From an uncultured Methanocorpusculum sp. (lineage in GTDB: Archaea > Halobacteriota > Methanomicrobia > Methanomicrobiales > Methanocorpusculaceae), in the NCBI RefSeq assembly GCF_963667985.1, contig NZ_OY764081.1:1523599-1587598 (forward strand): 64,000 nucleotides of DNA, given 5' to 3'. Position numbers and translations under genes: made by a program. This document shows positions 4,358 to 62,876 of the stretch, one piece after another. Every line of letters starts with the position of its first letter. Positions within the stretch are counted from its first letter, which is position 1. The notes beneath the pieces are model-generated. The model made no database searches, had not been told where the DNA came from, and was given only the letters and a program-made list of their open reading frames with translations.

Positions 4358-5893
4358 TCACGTTGTCTGCGAGAATGTATTGCTGAATGACAACTCAAAG
4401 TCTCGTCCAGTACGAAGTTTATTTCTATTGGAGATGAGCATATCCGGATGAGTAGCTACACGAAGACCAAATTCTTCTGGTGTAGCATCCAAATCATTCA
4501 TATAATCGATCTGCTGCAGAAGATTTTCAGTTGCAATAGATATGTGTCTGAAATTATCGTATAAACTGGATGGAACAAATAATCGGCATAAATCAAGATA
4601 GCCAGGCCTGTATCCAAACCATCTGCCCATCTGCATTAGGGTATCGTAATTTTTTGAAGGACGTGAGAAATAACTCACCGTTAATCCTTCTAAAGTAAGT
4701 CCCCGTGACAATTTGTCACCGCCTAGAGCAATTACATTATATGGCAGATTTTTGTCTATGTGTTCTTTGTAGGTTAGAAAATCTTCACTATCTCCGTTTA
4801 TCTTCTTCAGTCTAATTTTGTCGGGACCATCACGAGATAGTGACCTGAGCTCTTTTTCGATATTTTCCCATGTTTCAACCGGCAGTTTCCCAACACGATT
4901 TCGATATAATTCATGCATCTTTTTCGAAGTTGGCAGATAGTCATCCGTCCAAAGGGTTTTCAAATTTTGGAGAGTATCTTCATCATTGAAAATGATCTGA
5001 ATTTGGAGTGCTTCAAGATAATTGTTGATATCATTTTCCCAAAGAGAATGCTCTGATTTTAAGCGGTCAGTATGAATCAGCATAGAATTCGGGTGATTTC
5101 TTTGCCCCCTGCAGTTTCGTGCTGCTGTTGACAGAAAAAACATTTGAATGGCTGATTCCAGCATCGGCCCAATAGATTCTTTATTATTTAAACCAGATTC
5201 CAGATTTTGTTCTGTTTGTGTACTGTTATCTGAAACAATTTCCCGATAAAGGGGCATATCTTCATTCTCATCATTCTTCAATCCGAAGAATTCTTTTGCC
5301 CCGAAATATTGTGTACATTTCTCCCAATAATTATTGAGGGCCTCCAATACAGTCTTATTTTTCTTTGTAACAATTATGAGTGGAGGGTTCAGAGAGATTG
5401 TCAACTTTTTATTATTAAAATCTCCATTTTCGTCTCGAGATGTGAATGCTTGAACTGGAAAATCAGATAATGGCTGATTTCTGCTGATAATTGGGTTTGC
5501 AAGGACATTCATTACTGTGTCTGTTGATACATCGATACTGTTTTCTACAACGACAGGGTCCCAGTTTTTCTTTTCAATCAGGTATTTTGAATAGCGTGAC
5601 CAGTAATTCAATTTGTTATTTTGAACTTTGTAATCAGACCACCAATGAGAATTACGGACATTCTTACCATAAATTCCAACTGTATTTCCATATTCAATCG
5701 AACAATTTATCTCACCTTCCAAATATTGGGATAAATGATCAGTATCATGAATAAGCGGTTTGTATTTAGCAACAATCTCTTCAATAGCTTTTGACTGTTT
5801 TAAATCTCGGGTGCTTATTTCTTTTTTACATTCTTCATACGCTGAAATGTACAGCAGCCTCTGCGAGTAATCAAGTTCAGAAATGTCAATCAT
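4358..5893 (-). pseudogene. Z1-domain helicase-like protein, truncated and lacking Walker motifs
   Basis: Z1 proteins are superfamily II-like ATPases found beside MutL/MORC-type ATPases in restriction-like systems. The C-terminal Z1 hallmark is clear: IALGGDKLSRGLTLEG followed by MQMGRWFGYRPGY. The frame is 511 residues and contains no GK[ST] P-loop and no DExx-type Walker B. From memory of the family, the segment after VMNVLANP and the one between NNYWEKCTQ and YFGAKEFFGL are where those motifs belong, so both look deleted in frame. The frame stops at TGA 4358-4360, after which coding sequence continues in the same frame. ATG 5893 overlaps the end of the GHKL gene by four bases. Confidence 0.85.
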
Positions 5894-7518
5894 TTTTTAT
5901 CACTTTCAAAAAGTTGTATTATCTCATCTTTGAGATATGCGAAATACGGCATTTCTAAAACGGTCTGTTTAATTTCCTCCGGATCGCATCCACCTTTTCT
6001 AAACCCTTCAATCAATTCTTTGACACGAAGGATATCAGTATCTTTGTCAAATTCATCAATTATTTTATTTTGCTCATTATCCTGTGAATATTGAACCAAA
6101 CCAGTCAGCAGAACCGGTGAAAAATTCTCTATAAGTGAGATATAAGAACTAAAAATCTCTTTTTGTTCAGAAATTAAGGATTGATGCAGTGAAATATACA
6201 AAGTATGCTTCTTATTTAAATGATAAGAATATTCACCATTAACAGATTTTCTTTGTTCCCATACAGCACCTAGTGAAGGGCGTGCTGAGCCTTTTGCGTA
6301 GGAACCTCGTGAATTATAGACTTTGGTTGATTTTTCCGTGCAGTCGGCAACAATCCGTTTAAGCATTTCCAGAATATAGATCGGGACAGTGGTTTTAGAT
6401 TTGTCAACAGTTATTTTCCACTCTTCATCATGACTTGGGAGAATATCCACTTGTATTCTCGCTAAATTAAACGTCATCTCCTTTTTTATAATATCAAACC
6501 AGGTTCCGTATTTAATCAAACGTCTGTTTCTGTAGAGATATATTCCCTGATTGCGCATCCAGCCTTGCTTTCCTCCAGCCGCATTATATTCATCTTCTGA
6601 GGAAAATTTAGATCTATGCGGCAGAACATATGGTTGAATAGTTATCTCACCATTTTCACTGTTAACTATTTCTTCATCGAGTTCCTGTGTGGCACGATTA
6701 GCTAGAATAAATGGATTCCAGTGAACAACCGGTTCAGTATTTATTATTATTTCTAACTCGTCCTCCTCAATAAATCTATGAAAAACCAAGGACAAATGAG
6801 ATTGAATTGATGATAATTTGCGGTAAAAATTTTGTTTAGATTTATCAATATTTTTGGCATCTATCAATGAGTCCAACTTTTCAATCAGGATAATAGTACC
6901 GCTTGGTAATTGGGAAAGTTCATTGCGGTATTTGCGAATAATATCAGTTTCATCATTTACGCAGATATTCCAGTTCATTCCTTCACAGCGGCATATATTA
7001 TCCAAATCCCAGCATGCGTCGGTTATATTGCTGCCATCATTAGTTATGACAGTAAGCCTTCGTCCCAAATATGTACCGGCTGTCTTTAAGCCCAATCCAA
7101 AGCGTCCCAAATCAGAATCTGTACGTGTTGTTGAGAAATAGAATGCAGCCAATTTCATAGCTTCAATAAGCGTTGACTTATCCATTCCTTTCCCATTATC
7201 ACATACAGTAATAATTGAATTTTCATCTAACCATTTAAATTCGATATGAATTTGGGTAGCTTCTGCAGATATGGAATTATCAACTAAATCAGCAATAGCG
7301 GTTTCGGGAGTATAACCCATATTCCTCATTGCTGCAAAAAGAGTTGGATCAGGCGGTGCTTCAACAATTTCAGGCAAGTCTTTTTTACTCCTACGTGATC
7401 TTATAAGAAATAGACAATTAACGGGATTTTCCGCTATTGTTATTAGTATTGGTAATGAAACTTTTATCTGTATATAGCTTATTGCAGTCTGTTGTAACGT
7501 AAAATAGTGCTCTGTCAA
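5890..7518 (-). CDS. GHKL ATPase, MutL/MORC-like, of the defence locus
   Basis: ATP-dependent dimerising clamp of the Hsp90/MutL/gyrase B fold, the first gene of the locus. GHKL motifs are all visible: N motif AIADLVDNSISA (about 74-85), G1 motif DNGKGM (107-112) and G2 motif GRFGLGLK (138-145). A MutL S5-like region and a long C-terminal part follow. The start is uncertain. The longest frame begins at a TTG (7518), but an ATG at 7522 with GGAG six bases upstream is in another frame and reads only 34 codons. Conserved sequence begins near DLPEIVEAPPDP (about residue 48), so the N-terminus may be shorter, or the 5' end shifted. Confidence 0.88.
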   Translation of the reverse strand: MTEHYFTLQQTAISYIQIKVSLPILITIAENPVNCLFLIRSRRSKKDLPEIVEAPPDPTLFAAMRNMGYTPETAIADLVDNSISAEATQIHIEFKWLDENSIITVCDNGKGMDKSTLIEAMKLAAFYFSTTRTDSDLGRFGLGLKTAGTYLGRRLTVITNDGSNITDACWDLDNICRCEGMNWNICVNDETDIIRKYRNELSQLPSGTIILIEKLDSLIDAKNIDKSKQNFYRKLSSIQSHLSLVFHRFIEEDELEIIINTEPVVHWNPFILANRATQELDEEIVNSENGEITIQPYVLPHRSKFSSEDEYNAAGGKQGWMRNQGIYLYRNRRLIKYGTWFDIIKKEMTFNLARIQVDILPSHDEEWKITVDKSKTTVPIYILEMLKRIVADCTEKSTKVYNSRGSYAKGSARPSLGAVWEQRKSVNGEYSYHLNKKHTLYISLHQSLISEQKEIFSSYISLIENFSPVLLTGLVQYSQDNEQNKIIDEFDKDTDILRVKELIEGFRKGGCDPEEIKQTVLEMPYFAYLKDEIIQLFESDKK

Positions 7519-7522
7519 TCAT

Positions 7523-8019
7523 TTTTATCTCCGACTTTATATAGCAACGTCAAATCCGGCTGGACCACGAGTAAAAATCAATTGGAAGGCCCAGTGAATA
7601 TTCCCGTCCAAACCACCTCTCTCCCCACTTGTTATCTCTCTGGCCGCAAATCAACCCCCGCCTCAGTTAAAGCCGCCCATTTAACGTCCGACCCGCTCCT
7701 CCTATAAAAACCCGCATTACCACGTATTACGTGAAAACATACCTTCAAATAACCTCAAAACCAACAAAAAATGAGACAAGTTCGTATAGGAAAAAAGAAT
7801 CAGTGCGGTCCGGCATACGAGTCCTGCGGGACGGTTAGCTATTTTAGGGTACGGTTCGCAGCCACATAAGTCGTCCTCCTCTGCCCACGGGCCAACCTGA
7901 AAATTTCTTCCTCTCCGAACTGATCACGAACCCCAGGTTCGCGACACAACGGAACTCAGGCCCCTCGTTTGGTCTGAAAAATTGTACGGATACCCGCCAG
8001 GGGTAAACTTGAATTAACC
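7523..8019. other. Gene-free stretch left of the small RHH-like gene
   Basis: No convincing coding frame on either strand. It holds a TATA-like CCTATAAAAA at 7701-7710 followed at 7721-7733 by the perfect palindrome CACGTATTACGTG, which together look like a promoter with an operator. The nearest plus-strand gene starts almost 290 bases further on. The rest shows no repeat or RNA gene that I can recognise. Confidence 0.4.
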
Positions 8020-8262
8020 ATGAACACATTAATGAAAATGACAGAAATCGAAGATTTCAAAAATGTAACGACAATCAGATTAAACACTGCGATCAACTCG
8101 AGCCGCGTCAGATTCCCTGACTCGCTGTCCGTAAAGATCCCCACTTTCTCACGACAGGGACTCGAGATCGCAGCACAGGAACAGGGGCTCACCCTCTCCG
8201 AACTCACGCGGGACATCGTCGAGGCATACCTCGAAGAATACCTCAAAAACAAAAAACGCTGA
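8020..8262 (+). CDS. Small protein, possible ribbon-helix-helix type
   Basis: 80 residues; starts at ATG 8020 or at in-frame ATGs 12-18 bases later, with no clear ribosome binding site. The first half contains a strand-like TTIRLN and FPDSLSVKI. The second half, LEIAAQEQGLTLSELTRDIVEAYLEEYL, predicts two helices (shown here as LEIAAQEQGL and LSELTRDIVEAYLEEYL). That layout resembles antitoxin or repressor proteins of the ribbon-helix-helix class. No toxin gene lies beside it; the next gene is the GxxExxY element. The function is inferred from shape only. Confidence 0.55.
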   Translation: MNTLMKMTEIEDFKNVTTIRLNTAINSSRVRFPDSLSVKIPTFSRQGLEIAAQEQGLTLSELTRDIVEAYLEEYLKNKKR

Positions 8263-8317
8263 AAAGCGGATCCATTTCTCTTTTTTTGATAGGCGTTACA
8301 CGACATTGGTGTATATT

Positions 8318-8525
8318 CAATTTGGGAAAGGTACGGCTGGGTGCGGACACATGAGAAACCCCACCGCGAATAATCGCGAATCAACGCGAATCGCATTTTC
8401 CTTACGCTGTCCTCTTGTCCTCGTCGTTTCACTCTTCGGCCGCGTTCCTACGCTCCGCCTTATCGGCTCCGCGTGGCCGGAACGCCAGCGTGGAAAATGC
8501 TGGAAAACCCGCGACGCGGGTTTTC
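8318..8525. repeat. Left arm of the GxxExxY inverted-repeat element
   Basis: About 200 bp, repeated in inverted orientation at 9014-9185 and again, nearly identically, at 15287-15495. Outer to inner: CAATTTGGGAAAGG, three CGCGAAT iterons starting at 8365, 8375 and 8385 (exactly 10 bp apart), a GC-rich core (containing CTCCGCCTTATCGGCTCCGC), and an inner hairpin AAAACCCGCG/CGCGGGTTTT next to the end of the enclosed gene. The hairpin with its T run could also end transcription. Confidence 0.85.
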
Positions 8526-8531
8526 TTCTAT

Positions 8532-8966
8532 TTATTTGGGTACATTCTCCTTTCTGAAGTAGTGATCGTTGGTGTAGACAAACCGTTTCCAGTCGAGCTT
8601 GCCTTTCTTCCCAAAGTTTATCAGAATCCCCACATGAATTTCGGTCGCCTTGAGATAATTGATCAGTTGTGGATCATCAATTTCAGTCAATCGGGAGATT
8701 GCTTTTAGTTCAAGGATGATTTTTCCATAACAGACGATATCTGCCTCAAAGAAACCGGGGAGTTTCACTCCTTTATAATAGATATCGAGGTGTTTCTTGT
8801 GTTCGAACGGAACTCCCTGCAAACCGAATTCAACCTCCAAAGCATCATGATAGACGCCCTCCAGAAAGCCGATCCCGAGCGTATTGTACACAGTCATCGC
8901 ACAACCGATAATTTTTCGAACCTCTTCCGGGTAAAGAACATCAGGATTATCCACACCAGTATCCAT
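8532..8966 (-). CDS. GxxExxY family protein (PD-(D/E)XK-like fold)
   Basis: 144 residues. The naming motif is GFLEGVY at about residues 34-40. The nuclease-fold core is FFEADIVCYG (Asp at about 75) followed by ILELKAI, giving the D...ExK pattern of PDDEXK_3 proteins. The biochemical role of the family is unknown. The gene fills exactly the space between two inverted repeats (8318-8525 and 9014-9185), with only a few bases from its stop to the left hairpin. It therefore looks like the cargo, or the enzyme, of that element. The start ATG 8966 is preceded on the coding strand by an AT-rich TTTTTATTACC that may be its promoter. Confidence 0.88.
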   Translation of the reverse strand: MDTGVDNPDVLYPEEVRKIIGCAMTVYNTLGIGFLEGVYHDALEVEFGLQGVPFEHKKHLDIYYKGVKLPGFFEADIVCYGKIILELKAISRLTEIDDPQLINYLKATEIHVGILINFGKKGKLDWKRFVYTNDHYFRKENVPK

Positions 8967-9013
8967 GAAATTCTCTTCATTTTCAGGTAATAAAAAGATA
9001 TCTCTGATGAAAA

Positions 9014-9185
9014 GAAAACCCGCGACGCGGGTTTTCCAGCATTTTCCACGCTGGCGTTCCGGCCACGCGGAGCCGATAAGGCGGAGCGTAGGAACGCGGC
9101 CGAAGAGTGAAACGACGAGGACAAGAGGACAGCGTAAGGAAAATGCGATTCGCGTTTATTCGCGGTGAGATATCTCATGTGTTCA
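9014..9185. repeat. Right arm of the GxxExxY inverted-repeat element
   Basis: Inverted copy of 8318-8525: hairpin AAAACCCGCG/CGCGGGTTTT on the inside, then the core with GCGGAGCCGATAAGGCGGAG, and ATTCGCG iterons on the outside. It has two iterons rather than three. Matching is nearly base for base through the core, which suggests recent duplication or active conversion between the arms. Confidence 0.85.
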
Positions 9186-9273
9186 CATCCATCCAGTCAT
9201 GAAAAAAATATGTTGGGCAATTTATTACCACAGCACCATCTGAAGTAACGTGATGCGGATCACCTCTCAACGT

Positions 9274-9725: not shown

Positions 9726-9830
9726 TCATCTCTGCCCTACAAGTAATCCCTCGACCATCTTCCCAAAGAGCATGATCAAAAACCCGAGGAACACAAGGAT
9801 CAGCTTCCTAAACCGGCGGGAGATCTGCAT
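9726..9830 (-). CDS. 34-residue single-pass membrane peptide
   Basis: A very short gene 12 bases after the stop of the 163-residue gene. Its start ATG (9830) is preceded by AGGGAGGCGGAG, a purine-rich ribosome binding site that fills the whole gap between the two genes. The product has a basic N-terminus (RRFRK) and one hydrophobic segment, LILVFLGFLIMLFG, then KMVEGLLVGQR. The spacing and binding site suggest coupled translation. The role is unknown; small holin-like or signalling peptides look like this, but nothing here proves either. Confidence 0.55.
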   Translation of the reverse strand: MQISRRFRKLILVFLGFLIMLFGKMVEGLLVGQR

Positions 9831-9842
9831 CTCCGCCTCCCT

Positions 9843-10334
9843 TCAGCAGAGGCCGGGCTTCGTGTCCGCCCAGGTCTCGACTGTGGCGAGGGTGGCGTCG
9901 TCAGCATAGCCGGAGACGATTAACGAATCCCGGTTGAAGCTGATCTGGAAGGTGTCGGTCTCAAGCTTTGCGGAGATCCGAACATTCCAGGTCGCGTCGG
10001 TGCCGATCTCGGAGGTCTCGGCCGTGCCGCCGTTCCCGAATGCGGTCTTGAGATCCGCACTGCCGGTAAGAGCGGTGATCGCTGCGGCGTATTCGTCCCG
10101 GGTGTATGCCGTAACCTGAACCTTGCCGTTCATCTCGGAAGTGTTCGGATCGAAGTAGCCGACATAGGTCTTGTAGGTCTCCTTCCCAAGCTCCACTTCG
10201 GCAAGGCCGAGAGGATTTGTCTCGCCCGTAATTTCTGCGACGATCGCATCATACGCGGCGGCGTTCGTAAACTCTGCGGTGAAGGTCCTCTTCGAGGACT
10301 TCGAGACTGCTGTCTGAATGAAATCTGCTGTCAT
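9843..10334 (-). CDS. Hypothetical 163-aa soluble protein
   Basis: No family recognised. The sequence is acidic, rich in Ala, Thr and Glu, and alternates strand-like stretches (KTYVGYFD, GKVQVTAYT, WNVRISAKL, FQISFNRDSLIVSGYA). It has no signal peptide or membrane segment. This composition is common in virion or tail-like structural proteins and in pilin-like domains, but no hallmark supports a choice. It has its own promoter region with an inverted repeat around the TATA-like box and is followed by the 34-residue membrane peptide. Confidence 0.72.
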   Translation of the reverse strand: MTADFIQTAVSKSSKRTFTAEFTNAAAYDAIVAEITGETNPLGLAEVELGKETYKTYVGYFDPNTSEMNGKVQVTAYTRDEYAAAITALTGSADLKTAFGNGGTAETSEIGTDATWNVRISAKLETDTFQISFNRDSLIVSGYADDATLATVETWADTKPGLC

Positions 10335-10361
10335 GATTTTGTCCCGAGATCAGTTGGGGCC

Positions 10362-10392
10362 CCGTCCAACCTCTGATTATATTCTTGGACGG
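10362..10392 (-). promoter_or_regulatory. TATA-like box enclosed in an inverted repeat (operator)
   Basis: Perfect 8-bp arms CCGTCCAA (10362-10369) and TTGGACGG (10385-10392) flank an AT-rich centre reading GAATATAAT on the minus strand. The centre is about 45 bases before the 163-residue gene's ATG at 10334, a normal distance for an archaeal TATA box with a short leader. A repressor bound to the arms would cover the TATA box. Confidence 0.6.
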
Positions 10393-10509
10393 TTGTCGGG
10401 ATAGCGGTAAAGTTTTTGCGGATTTTTCACAAAAAAGATGGGTTTATATGGAGGGATTTGGGAGTGGTGTCGTTCCTATTTTTCGGGCGGTCGGGAGGGG
10501 GGGGCAGGT

Positions 10510-10553
10510 CCAATTACTAATTTGACAGATATTAGTAATAAATTAGTAATTGG
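10510..10553. repeat. AT-rich inverted repeat with ATTAGTAAT units
   Basis: Arms CCAATTACTAATTT (10510-10523) and AAATTAGTAATTGG (10540-10553) are perfectly complementary over 14 bp. The 16-base loop holds a third ATTAGTAAT (10531-10539). It lies four bases beyond the rloB stop. It may end rloA-rloB transcription, but it has no clean T run, and the three spaced units look equally like a protein-binding site. Confidence 0.6.
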
Positions 10554-10557
10554 GATT

Positions 10558-11211
10558 CTACTCAGACAGCGGACACATGTCCCTGATTTCTTTGATAAGG
10601 AGATGTAGACTTGTACATGGGCACATCTTCGATGGACTGGTTATCCCATTTCCCTTATGTTCATGCAATTTCCCCTCTGCACGCTCAATTGCTTTCATCT
10701 CATCTCCATTTTCGGAGAGATGCTCGTATATCTTCTCATTTCCTTTTGTGTAGGTACATGAGGTGTGTTTTTTGAACACGATTTTAAACGTATCCTGACA
10801 GCATTGTGATGACGTCTCCCTGCAAAGCTCTCCGAAATACGCAGAAAACCAGACTTCGATACATGGATTCGACCAGCCAACCGAGAGTCCTTCTTTCTTT
10901 GCGTTCTTTATTATCTTATCAAATTCAGGTCTTTCATCATAATCAAAAACGATCCAGGTATGCTTCACATACATAGGTTCAATATTCTGTAACCTCTTGC
11001 ATTCTGCAATGAAGTCTGCTGGATCGTTCGTCTGAAAAACTCTGAGAGCAAATTTGTTCTGCTGATCCGCCGGCAGACTCTTTTTCAGTCCGTTGAGATA
11101 ATGCCGTTCCGTTCCCTTTGCATCAGTCATTACCAGATAATGTTCGCACTGGATGGGTTTCCATCCAGTCAATCTCCGCTTTCTCCCCCCGTTTCTACTT
11201 GTATTCGGCAT
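10558..11211 (-). CDS. rloB: RloB-like Toprim-family protein
   Basis: Toprim-fold protein paired with an ABC-type ATPase, probably the effector nuclease of an antiphage pair related to the AAA/Toprim systems (RloAB, PARIS, OLD). The start is ATG 11211 with GGAG four bases upstream, inside the end of the ATPase gene; the longer TTG start at 11226 has no such site. Motifs: the first Toprim strand is HYLVMTDAKGTERHYL (about 24-39), where the usual acidic CEG is replaced by TDA. The DxD motif is VFDYDE (about 88-93). SNPCIEVWFSAYF (about 114-126) is the typical RloB block. The length (217) fits the family. Confidence 0.8.
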   Translation of the reverse strand: MPNTSRNGGRKRRLTGWKPIQCEHYLVMTDAKGTERHYLNGLKKSLPADQQNKFALRVFQTNDPADFIAECKRLQNIEPMYVKHTWIVFDYDERPEFDKIIKNAKKEGLSVGWSNPCIEVWFSAYFGELCRETSSQCCQDTFKIVFKKHTSCTYTKGNEKIYEHLSENGDEMKAIERAEGKLHEHKGNGITSPSKMCPCTSLHLLIKEIRDMCPLSE

Positions 11212-12475
11212 GCTTCTCCGATACAACGTTGATCTTCTTCAGCTCCGGGATCGCCCCGTACTTTCCCAGAAGATAATTCTTGGCGTAATTTTCATCTTTA
11301 CGGATCTTTGCAACATTTTCTCCCTTAAAGTCGACGAGAGAATACAAACATGAGGCACCGTTTCCATCCTTCTCCGTGAACCAGATCTCATCGCGCCTGA
11401 GAAGATCGCTGGAGAGTAGCCAGGAATCATGCGTAGTAAAGATCAGCTGGGCATTGTTCGGATTTGTTTCTTTATCAAGGAATGTTATGATGAAATCCTG
11501 AACCAGAAGGGGGTGAAGACGTGCATTGAGTTCATCGATGAAAAAGACCCCGCCGGATTTAAGAACATTCTTCAGAGGATAGTACAGAACAAACATCTTC
11601 TGTGTTCCTGCAGATTCTTGGGCAAGAGGAATATTGACAGTTTCACCAGATCCGTTTACCTGGTGAACAGCATCTATCCTATATTTTGGAGATGAGTTCG
11701 TTTCTGAACTTGGAATCTCTTCAACATTGAAATCAACGATCCCGTGATCGAATGTGGAGAGATATGCGGCAACTTCCTTTCTGAAGGTCGGTTCTTTTTC
11801 AAATCCTGGCGGCATCTGTAGTGATAAGATGAAATTCAAATCCGGGCTTCCAAAATCCAGGAAGTGCAATTTAAAGAACCAATCATGTATGGTTTCCAGT
11901 ATCGGTACTTTGAGCTTTGCACCAAGAGAAACGATCAATGCTTCATCCTGTAGGGAAACCTTCAGATTATCCCGATACTCCTTTGGAATCTTTGGGAATG
12001 CGATTTCACTCCCTCTTTCCCTATACAGTATCGGGTAGTATTTGCGTCCGGTTTCAGCTTTGTAGTTGAGCCATTCCTCAGAAACTCCCATATTGTCTAC
12101 AGTGAACCCATAATTGTAGATTTTCCCTTCCTCGTCGTTCAGCGTGAAGTAGACTTCAAATAAGGAGGGCATATCTTTCGAGGCGGTACTCAGAAGGAAC
12201 GGCAGAGGTTTTTTGTAAACCTTTGTTTTTCCTGTATCTTTAGCTCCGCCAAAGTTGAAGGATTTCGTAACGTAATACGACATGTATCCAAACGCATCAT
12301 ACACATTCGTTTTTCCAGAAGCATTCGCTCCGTAAATCGCGGCAGTTTTGAGTATTTTCTCCTTTCCAATAGTTACGACATGATGTGGATGTTCCGTGAC
12401 CTTGGTTGCGGATAAATCCAGAATCGTTTCATCTTTGAAGGATTTGAAATTTTTAAACTTAAACTGAATGAGCAT
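11195..12475 (-). CDS. rloA: RloA-like AAA/ABC ATPase
   Basis: 426-residue ABC-class ATPase of the RloA/AAA_15 kind, the sensor partner of RloB. The N-terminus FKNFKSFKDETILDLS is typical of the class. Walker A is GANASGKTN at about 49-57, Walker B is VFFIDELNARLHP and the H-loop is IFTTHDSWLL near the C-terminus. The segment ESAGTQKMF stands where the ABC signature helix begins. Its end overlaps rloB by 17 bases, so the two are co-translated. It is preceded by a well-marked promoter and operator region. In known relatives the ATPase senses a phage protein and releases the Toprim effector; whether that holds here is inference. Confidence 0.85.
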   Translation of the reverse strand: MLIQFKFKNFKSFKDETILDLSATKVTEHPHHVVTIGKEKILKTAAIYGANASGKTNVYDAFGYMSYYVTKSFNFGGAKDTGKTKVYKKPLPFLLSTASKDMPSLFEVYFTLNDEEGKIYNYGFTVDNMGVSEEWLNYKAETGRKYYPILYRERGSEIAFPKIPKEYRDNLKVSLQDEALIVSLGAKLKVPILETIHDWFFKLHFLDFGSPDLNFILSLQMPPGFEKEPTFRKEVAAYLSTFDHGIVDFNVEEIPSSETNSSPKYRIDAVHQVNGSGETVNIPLAQESAGTQKMFVLYYPLKNVLKSGGVFFIDELNARLHPLLVQDFIITFLDKETNPNNAQLIFTTHDSWLLSSDLLRRDEIWFTEKDGNGASCLYSLVDFKGENVAKIRKDENYAKNYLLGKYGAIPELKKINVVSEKHAEYK

Positions 12476-15286: not shown

Positions 15287-15712
15287 CAATTCGGAAAGGG
15301 TATGGTCGATTGCGGACGCATGAGATATCCCACCGCGAATAATCGCGAATAAACGCGAATCGCATTTTCCTTACGCTGCCTTCTTGTTCTCGTCGCTTCA
15401 CTCCTCGACCGCGTTCCTATGCTCCGCCTTATCGGCTCCGCAAGGCCGGAACGCCAGCGTGGAAAATGCTGGAAAACCCGCGTCGTGGGTTTTCTGCCGA
15501 GAGAGTGGTGATATTTTTTTTAATTACGAGGATTTGAGATTCTTTAAAGAAAACCCGCGACGCGGGTTTTCCAGCATTTTTCGTTTCGCCGTCCCGACCA
15601 CGCGGAGCCGATAAGGCGGAGCGTAGGGACGCGACCGGAGGTCAAGAGGGCGAAACAGGAAAAATGCGATTCGCGTTTATTCGCGATTATTCGCGGTGGG
15701 ATTTCTCATAGT
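15287..15712. repeat. Near-empty copy of the GxxExxY inverted-repeat element
   Basis: Two arms, 15287-15495 and 15549-15712, inverted to each other and closely matching the arms at 8318-8525 and 9014-9185: CGCGAAT iterons every 10 bp outside, the same GC core, and inner hairpins of the AAAACCCGCG type. Only about 50 bases lie between the arms and no gene fits there. It looks like a deletion derivative or a non-autonomous form. Confidence 0.85.
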
Positions 15713-62699: not shown

Positions 62700-62873
62700 G
62701 AAAAACCCGCACGCGGGTTTTTCCCCAGCATTTTTCCAGACGGCGTGCGATTTCTGCGCAGGCGATAAGCCGGAGCAGAGCACGACGACGCAAGAAAAAT
62801 GCGATTCGCGAGAATTCGCGGAGATTCGCGGTGGGATTTCTCTTGTGTCCCCTCCCAGCCTTACCCTTCCCGA
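62700..62873. repeat. Single arm of the GxxExxY-type repeat
   Basis: Same order as the arms at 9014-9185 and 15549-15712: a hairpin AAAAACCCGC/GCGGGTTTTT, a core with GCGATAAGCCGGAGC, then three ATTCGCG iterons 10 bp apart and an outer CCTTACCCTTCCCGAAT. Sequence in the core has drifted more than in the other copies. No facing arm exists near it. Confidence 0.72.
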
Positions 62874-62876
62874 ATC

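Follow-up and report, generated by a model that had tools for sequence, protein, structure and literature searches.

The closest described systems to the locus analysed here are the RAYT proteins and their REP palindromes. In PMC3116915, the palindromes of the SBW25 RAYTs were described in inverted pairs and in tandem clusters beside each RAYT, with one flavour for each RAYT. According to PMC8266576, the RAYT protein, a HuH enzyme whose substrate is the single-stranded REP hairpin, co-evolves with its palindrome. The present locus is a GxxExxY gene of an uncultured Methanocorpusculum sp., and it was studied within a window of 64,000 nucleotides, which is the whole stretch of DNA that was analysed (contig NZ_OY764081.1). 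The reading favoured here, at a probability of roughly 0.6, is that GxxExxY genes and the phased iteron palindromes surrounding them constitute one functional unit, the cognate sites of which spread with help from the nuclease.

The gene was framed by two inverted arms (8375-8527 and 9012-9164), which were 153 nt long, 99% complementary and separated by 484 nt. The alignment score of the arms was 303, whereas the best score in 300 random placements of similar design in the same window was 26. A weaker symmetry continued beyond the arms for 48 nt at 83%, reaching 8335 and 9194. Three exact CGCGAAT iterons were positioned on the left side at a spacing of 10 bp, where 0 were expected from 100 shuffles, and two inverted copies, one fewer, were positioned on the right. 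The hairpin GAAAACCCGCGACGCGGGTTTTC, 23 nt in length, occurred on the inner side of both arms, and the left one folded. The initial annotation had described a gene framed by inverted arms with phased CGCGAAT iterons outside and a hairpin inside; all of these features were recovered, at the coordinates that it had given. The inner hairpin contained runs of A and T, and iteron palindromes fold strongly (two gene-less palindromes of the kind described below gave z values of -11.2 and -10.3 relative to shuffles), as would suit arms that act in RNA as long hairpins, terminators or transcript processing sites and have no part in movement. Such a role was judged highly improbable. The regular word spacing of 9-11 bp points to the binding of duplex DNA, the Rfam family search of the arms returned no match, and folding alone leaves the link between word and protein unexplained. 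The features of the window are collected in Table 1.

Table 1. Positions of the GxxExxY element, its parts and related copies in the window
Feature	Position	Strand	Basis
Left arm, outer part (weaker inverted symmetry)	8318-8364	+	Inverted-repeat alignment; recurs at many genome places
CGCGAAT iterons, three, 10-bp spacing	8365-8391	+	Pattern match, 0 mismatches
Left arm core	8392-8502	+	Inverted repeat, 99%
Left arm inner hairpin	8503-8525	+	Inverted repeat and folding
GxxExxY gene, predicted PD-(D/E)XK nuclease, family PF13366 / TIGR04256, 144 aa	8532-8966	-	Profile, alignment, structure model
Right arm inner hairpin	9014-9036	-	Inverted repeat
Right arm core	9037-9147	-	Inverted repeat
CGCGAAT iterons, two, inverted	9148-9164	-	Word search
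Right arm, outer part	9165-9194	-	Weaker inverted repeat
Gene-less copy, left arm (iterons 15334-15360)	15289-15495	+	Sequence match and iteron pattern
Gene-less copy, right arm (iterons 15669-15695)	15548-15709	-	Sequence match and iteron pattern
Single arm, partnerless (iterons 62804-62830; hairpin 62700-62723 by eye)	62700-62875	-	Sequence match and iteron pattern

The surroundings of the element were also inspected. Defence-like neighbours, comprising Z1 and HATPase genes and RloB and AAA_21 genes, were located at window positions 4358-7518 and 10558-12475. A gene on the minus strand (9843-10334), together with its flank (9748-10557), had no Pfam match; its sequence recurred in relatives and, in the own genome, at six or more further positions, and its copies often adjoined GxxExxY elements. 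The region 7688-8273 contained a small ORF (8020-8262) and conserved upstream sequence, and a 99% copy of 7688-8215 was present at G000:C1:742647-743174.

The window protein matched PF13366 (E 6.9e-38, 130.1 bits, cut-off 22) and TIGR04256 (E 2.5e-38, 131 bits, cut-off 35), and the GxxExxY motif corresponded to G33..E36..Y39. E36, Y39, D76, E86, K88, Q100 and N117 were invariant in 85 aligned sequences, and Y104 was nearly invariant. D76, E86 and K88 form the D...(D/E)xK catalytic core of PD-(D/E)XK enzymes, so that the D...ExK core suggested in the initial annotation was borne out by the whole alignment. The structure predicted for the protein (pLDDT 89, pTM 0.83) had its best Foldseek match, a weak one, in SSO0001 (4ic1), which we take to be a Cas4 protein (E 1.7e-3, Z 8.0), and the other near folds, among them many nucleases of the PD-(D/E)XK fold, included lambda exonuclease, RecE and several restriction enzymes; the sequence search of the PDB yielded no relative, with a best E of 0.0046. 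A Q-x3-Y pair is typical of the Cas4, lambda exonuclease and RecE branch. The Pfam scan at E 0.001 returned PF13366 alone, without the HuH Y1 TnpA-REP transposase, and no known transposase domain was found in the protein by Pfam and NCBIfam-type profile searches. Judged from its conserved residues, the GxxExxY protein is a predicted PD-(D/E)XK nuclease with a full catalytic core.

The generality of the framing was evaluated in a bacterial set of 80 loci, which came from many phyla according to the record titles and were collected by a scan of species genomes with a 20-sequence alignment. Loci with short flanks were left out, so that 73 of the 80 entered the inverted-repeat test and 76 the word search. 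The flanks aligned as an inverted repeat with a score of at least 40 for 34 of the 73 genes, compared with 3 of 604 control windows on the same contigs, and with a score of at least 30 for 52 genes, compared with 23 control windows. The de novo word search, in which one word had to be repeated at 9-12 bp on both flanks in inverted orientation, identified such a word around 50 of 76 genes but in only 4 of 563 control windows. Usually three copies stood on each side, about 10 bp apart, and a stricter cut of at least five copies in all retained 48 genes and 1 control window. No flanking word was called for the other 26 of the 76 genes, which counts against the favoured reading. Words of the form CRCNNAN were found for 88 of 187 distinct genes, mostly as two or three copies a side, and pointed towards the gene in 85 of the 88; the remaining 99 genes had no call in this narrower class, and they too count against the reading. 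The framing was specific to the family. In the same 30 genomes, GxxExxY genes were framed in 23 of 29 tested loci, whereas genes of PF05635, a four-helix bundle family, were framed in 1 of 25 (30 loci each before cut loci were left out). Repeats lying equally around unrelated genes, which the initial annotation had named as evidence that would speak against it, were therefore not what the control windows and the PF05635 genes displayed. As a separate observation, several GxxExxY genes (L224, L250, L252, L260 and L187) were clustered on the same strand of a single contig (G076:C4), in a region of about 13 kb.

The flanking word was then compared with the protein. Protein similarity and word similarity were correlated with a Mantel rho of 0.355, and the highest value in 500 permutations was 0.086. 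The nearest protein carried the identical word in 40 of 76 cases (7.3 expected), and the word changed 33 times on the protein tree, compared with a mean of 54.6 and a lowest value of 50 for shuffled labels. Moreover, pairs from different genomes at 60-90% protein identity had a common word in 95 of 150 cases, whereas pairs from the same genome had one in 3 of 27. Hence, the flanking word goes with the GxxExxY protein rather than with the genome that carries the repeats. At the level of single residues, raw associations linked residue 16 (T or V/S) with iteron base 5 (G or A; z 18) and residue 42 with base 7 (z 17.7). Once relatedness was taken into account, the co-changes on the tree were weak (p 0.034 for residue 16; best p 2.5e-4 in 416 tests) and linked no residue convincingly to a base, and both associations are regarded as leads only.

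The genome to which the window belongs (1.76 Mb, one contig) contained three PF13366 genes. The second gene (1591628-1591969) was enclosed by a different long inverted repeat of 197 nt at 96% with CGCGAATCGGCGCGAAT outside, and the third (94947-95291) by a weaker one (75% over about 190 nt) for which the word was CACGAAA. CGCGAAT triplet arrays numbered 29 in this genome, compared with 1 for the reversed control pattern. At least seven facing pairs of arrays had no GxxExxY gene between them, and single arms were also present; an example of each lies in the window (Table 1). None of these additional copies and framed genes had been noted in the initial annotation. Dispersed copies were likewise found in bacteria. 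The CGCAGAT triplet occurred in 15 of 30 genomes at 1-63 places each, whereas the reversed control gave 0 except for one genome with 1. When the word of a genome was assigned from its fetched genes, which do not cover all GxxExxY matches, CGCAGAT arrays were detected in 11 of the 12 genomes assigned this word and in 4 of 18 others (G066, 59; G089, 8; G076, 3; G070, 2). CACGAAT arrays were present in 3 of 3 genomes with a gene of that word (6, 23 and 128 places) and in 4 of 27 others (1, 11, 5 and 1). The CGCAGAT and CACGAAT counts include arrays at genes and overlapping counts in longer arrays, and the small ones (G061, G069, G071 and G083) may consist of nothing else.

Many of the array places proved to be gene-less palindromes, in which three iterons and three inverted iterons were separated by a loop of about 23 nt; 43 distinct palindromes had a length of 58-120 bp, with a median of 75 bp. 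In G088, iteron palindromes were repeated in tandem every 98 bp next to a GxxExxY gene of the same word (L409, G088:C233:19400-30400). With tandem arrays excluded, 5 of 24 palindromes were located by alignment inside an outer inverted repeat, compared with 0 of 107 control positions; four of the five were in a repeat of another word or sequence, and one was a cluster of the same word and not a nest. The strict word test gave 2 of 24, compared with 0 of 116. The initial annotation had proposed that the ends and any target duplication be defined, and no duplication was visible: three-base direct repeats were found at the edges of 0 of the 43 palindromes, many of which come from tandem arrays (shuffled mean 0.2). 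Two-base edge matches numbered 18 against 7.9, but were mostly the self-complementary GC and hence also inverted.

According to the favoured reading, the GxxExxY nuclease would recognise its own iteron word, presented as two inverted arrays with about one helical turn per copy, and would nick or cut DNA at or near the iteron palindromes. The DNA between the inverted arrays would be copied or moved elsewhere through host repair or recombination. The DNA so transported could be the gene itself or the short loop and occasionally, in a single archaeal genus, other genes; the gene-less palindromes may be non-autonomous copies that are served in trans. Binding, cutting and copying by repair would together yield the gene, empty palindromes, nests and tandem arrays.

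The family was present in 20 of the 61 genomes searched, the own genome included. Within the genus of the window the number of matches per genome ranged from 0 to 18 in a patchy manner (18, 0, 3, 2, 0 and so on), and matches were rare in the other genera of the order. Among the single GxxExxY genes of the genus, 31 were scorable and 27 of these were framed by inverted arms scoring at least 60, with shuffles reaching at most 25; L119 was left out of this scoring for its masked stretch. The four genes below the threshold were L112, L126, L127 and L128, and the two genes from outside the genus (L073 and L077) had no such arms. The outer words varied from gene to gene. In 10 of 11 elements tested, the best match of an arm was an arm of another element and not its own partner, indicating that the arms are not always kept alike within one element. 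Like the lack of target duplications, this counts against the favoured reading.

It was also considered whether the palindromes benefit the host, as tags for genome maintenance or for the distinction of own and foreign DNA, and are kept by selection instead of selfish spread. The distribution of the family is chromosomal, as would suit such tags: relatives of the window protein occurred in 8 of 72,556 plasmid records, and none was found in phage records or, by one short-pattern search, in viral contigs. The occurrence, within one genome, of several paralogues whose words differ would also fit. The patchy occurrence in the genus, the tandem and nested copies and the differing content of matching sites do not fit, and this explanation was considered unlikely. 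An algal virus GxxExxY protein is listed in PMC12085832, and viruses are thus not free of the family.

Convergent pairs of GxxExxY genes were found at fourteen loci of the genus (L090-L103), and had no arms of their own. An outer inverted repeat framed the pairs in the 12 loci that were testable of 13, with scores of 56-356 and shuffles of at most 27. The only phased word in these 12 loci was a low-complexity one at one locus, and the pairs were not counted as iteron elements; their lack of meaningful iterons also counts against the favoured reading. In the loci profiled, the product encoded between the paired genes was DpnI, a DNA-cytosine methylase, a GmrSD plus DUF4268 protein, or an HSDR_N protein. 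The genes enclosed at L090-L103 were exchangeable and mostly of defence type. A more far-reaching proposal can be formulated, to which we give somewhat less than even odds. GxxExxY genes and their palindromes would represent a new class of mobile DNA, widespread among bacteria and archaea and driven by a Cas4-like PD-(D/E)XK nuclease, with a 7-base word for each member in phased triplets. Gene-less palindromes would be mobilised in trans and would give rise to nests and tandem arrays, and exchangeable defence cassettes would be carried, in one archaeal genus, by the same ends and by paired GxxExxY genes.

Three matching sites, A, B and C, were compared among relatives. At site A, a GxxExxY element filled about 870 bp between two conserved flanks in G015, whereas G003 had 113 bp at the same place with the element absent, and RloB and AAA genes were in place in G000. 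At site B (own genome 1324844), a gene-less pair was shortened in G000 and full in G015, no arms were present in G003, and in G012 (L344) arms of the other type enclosed 4.3 kb that contained a Dsr1 gene split in two and lacked GxxExxY. L344 was the one case of other genes between two intact arms. At site C (own genome 96405), G000 and G015 each had a single arm, and G020 had a gene-less pair of the other type. Islands occupied the site in two further relatives: that of G003 comprised RloB and AAA genes together with one arm, whereas that of G012 had a DitA match and no arm was detected there. Content and occupancy therefore vary at these sites, without exact single insertions being isolated. 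Two other repeat families were noted near such sites, namely repeats of about 90 bp based on a ATTAGTAATTGG-type imperfect palindrome at an intergenic hot spot near site A (L301:1-3701, L302:1-4701; G012, G020) and a second intergenic inverted-repeat family of the GCGGGTTGGACGCTGAAAGCGG type around element sites of the genus (L339, L344, L107).

The initial annotation had suggested a search for other copies and empty sites, and had named identical positions in all relatives with no empty site as evidence against it. The relatives differed at matching sites, and copies and variable occupancy were found; a clean empty site for the window element itself was not, the flanks being rearranged and containing multicopy sequence. 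G020 matched the left neighbour (window 5900-7630) at 90%, and G012 and G003 matched the element at 88-90%. Around the gene-less copy of the window, seven relatives had no such array by pattern, but the upstream flank was not conserved.

These comparisons bear on two further explanations. In the first, GxxExxY would be a homing-like selfish gene that cuts the element-less allele, whereupon the gene and its arms are copied in by homologous repair, and the gene-less palindromes would be decayed or deleted copies. The PD-(D/E)XK core speaks for this, as do a site found filled in one relative but empty in a second and the lack of target duplication, the last being what homing would give. However, homing targets one allelic site, whereas dozens of unrelated positions carry the palindromes, and the gene-less palindromes are intact with a short loop and do not resemble a decayed gene; this explanation was held to be fairly improbable. 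In the second, the arms would be the ends or recombination sites of an unrelated element with another transposase or integrase, and GxxExxY would be one passenger among others, like the defence genes. L344 could be read in this manner, as could the islands with RloB/AAA genes and with the DitA match at site C. From genome to genome, the word nevertheless goes with the GxxExxY protein, paralogues within a genome have different words, and PF05635 genes of the same genomes are unframed, which makes a passenger role distinctly unlikely. The small mobile element proposed initially, with a nuclease acting on its own ends, is thus favoured by comparison as far as an element and a nuclease between its own ends are concerned, whereas excision, insertion, binding of the iterons and cleavage of the ends are inferred and no target duplication was seen.

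In the accessible part of the open-licence literature, GxxExxY was mentioned in passing only, PDDEXK_3 and the CGCAGATT double repeat were not found, and none of the titles examined for ATTCGTGT dealt with iteron palindromes or GxxExxY; descriptions of related kinds were likewise not found there. Neither its enzyme type nor its phased-word ends fit a described mobile system known to us. If the favoured reading is true, a repeat system spread over many bacterial groups and archaea would be driven by a family that is listed by its motif name only, and it would become possible to test where many unexplained intergenic palindromes (CGCAGAT, CACGAAT and CGCGAAT triplets) come from. Each protein would have its own short word, which may help the study of DNA choice by small nucleases, and the swapping of defence genes at hot spots in the genus of the window may be explained.

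Among the known systems, PF05635 (the 23S rRNA intervening-sequence family) resembles GxxExxY in being small, multicopy and scattered, and occurred in 24 of the same 30 genomes, but lacks phased inverted iteron framing. Insertion sequences and MITEs share one gene between inverted ends and gene-less versions with the same ends; GxxExxY, in contrast, has no known transposase domain or target duplication, and its ends are phased iterons. Membership of the DDE-type insertion sequences or MITEs was rejected on target-site duplication (0 of 43), and that of the homing endonucleases, which use one allelic site, on the many places of the palindromes. The Cas4, lambda exonuclease and RecE branch is linked to GxxExxY by the weak Foldseek matches and by the D, ExK and Q-x3-Y residues, which are conserved in GxxExxY; we know of no framing by cognate palindromes for these enzymes. 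The likeness is more extensive for RAYT/REPIN, as far as the cited papers describe it. It covers cognate palindromes beside the gene, dispersed gene-less inverted pairs, palindromes that differ between paralogues, clusters in tandem next to the gene and co-evolution of protein and palindrome, and the absence of a visible target duplication at GxxExxY palindromes agrees with it. Unlike the HuH enzymes of the RAYT family described there, the GxxExxY protein has PDDEXK_3 as its only family match, and its sites are phased direct-repeat arrays on each side. By analogy, the GxxExxY system would work like RAYT/REPIN, and it is not a member of that family because its enzyme belongs to another superfamily. 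If this is true, a second and independent invention of the RAYT/REPIN way of life, built on a Cas4/recombination-exonuclease fold, would be represented.
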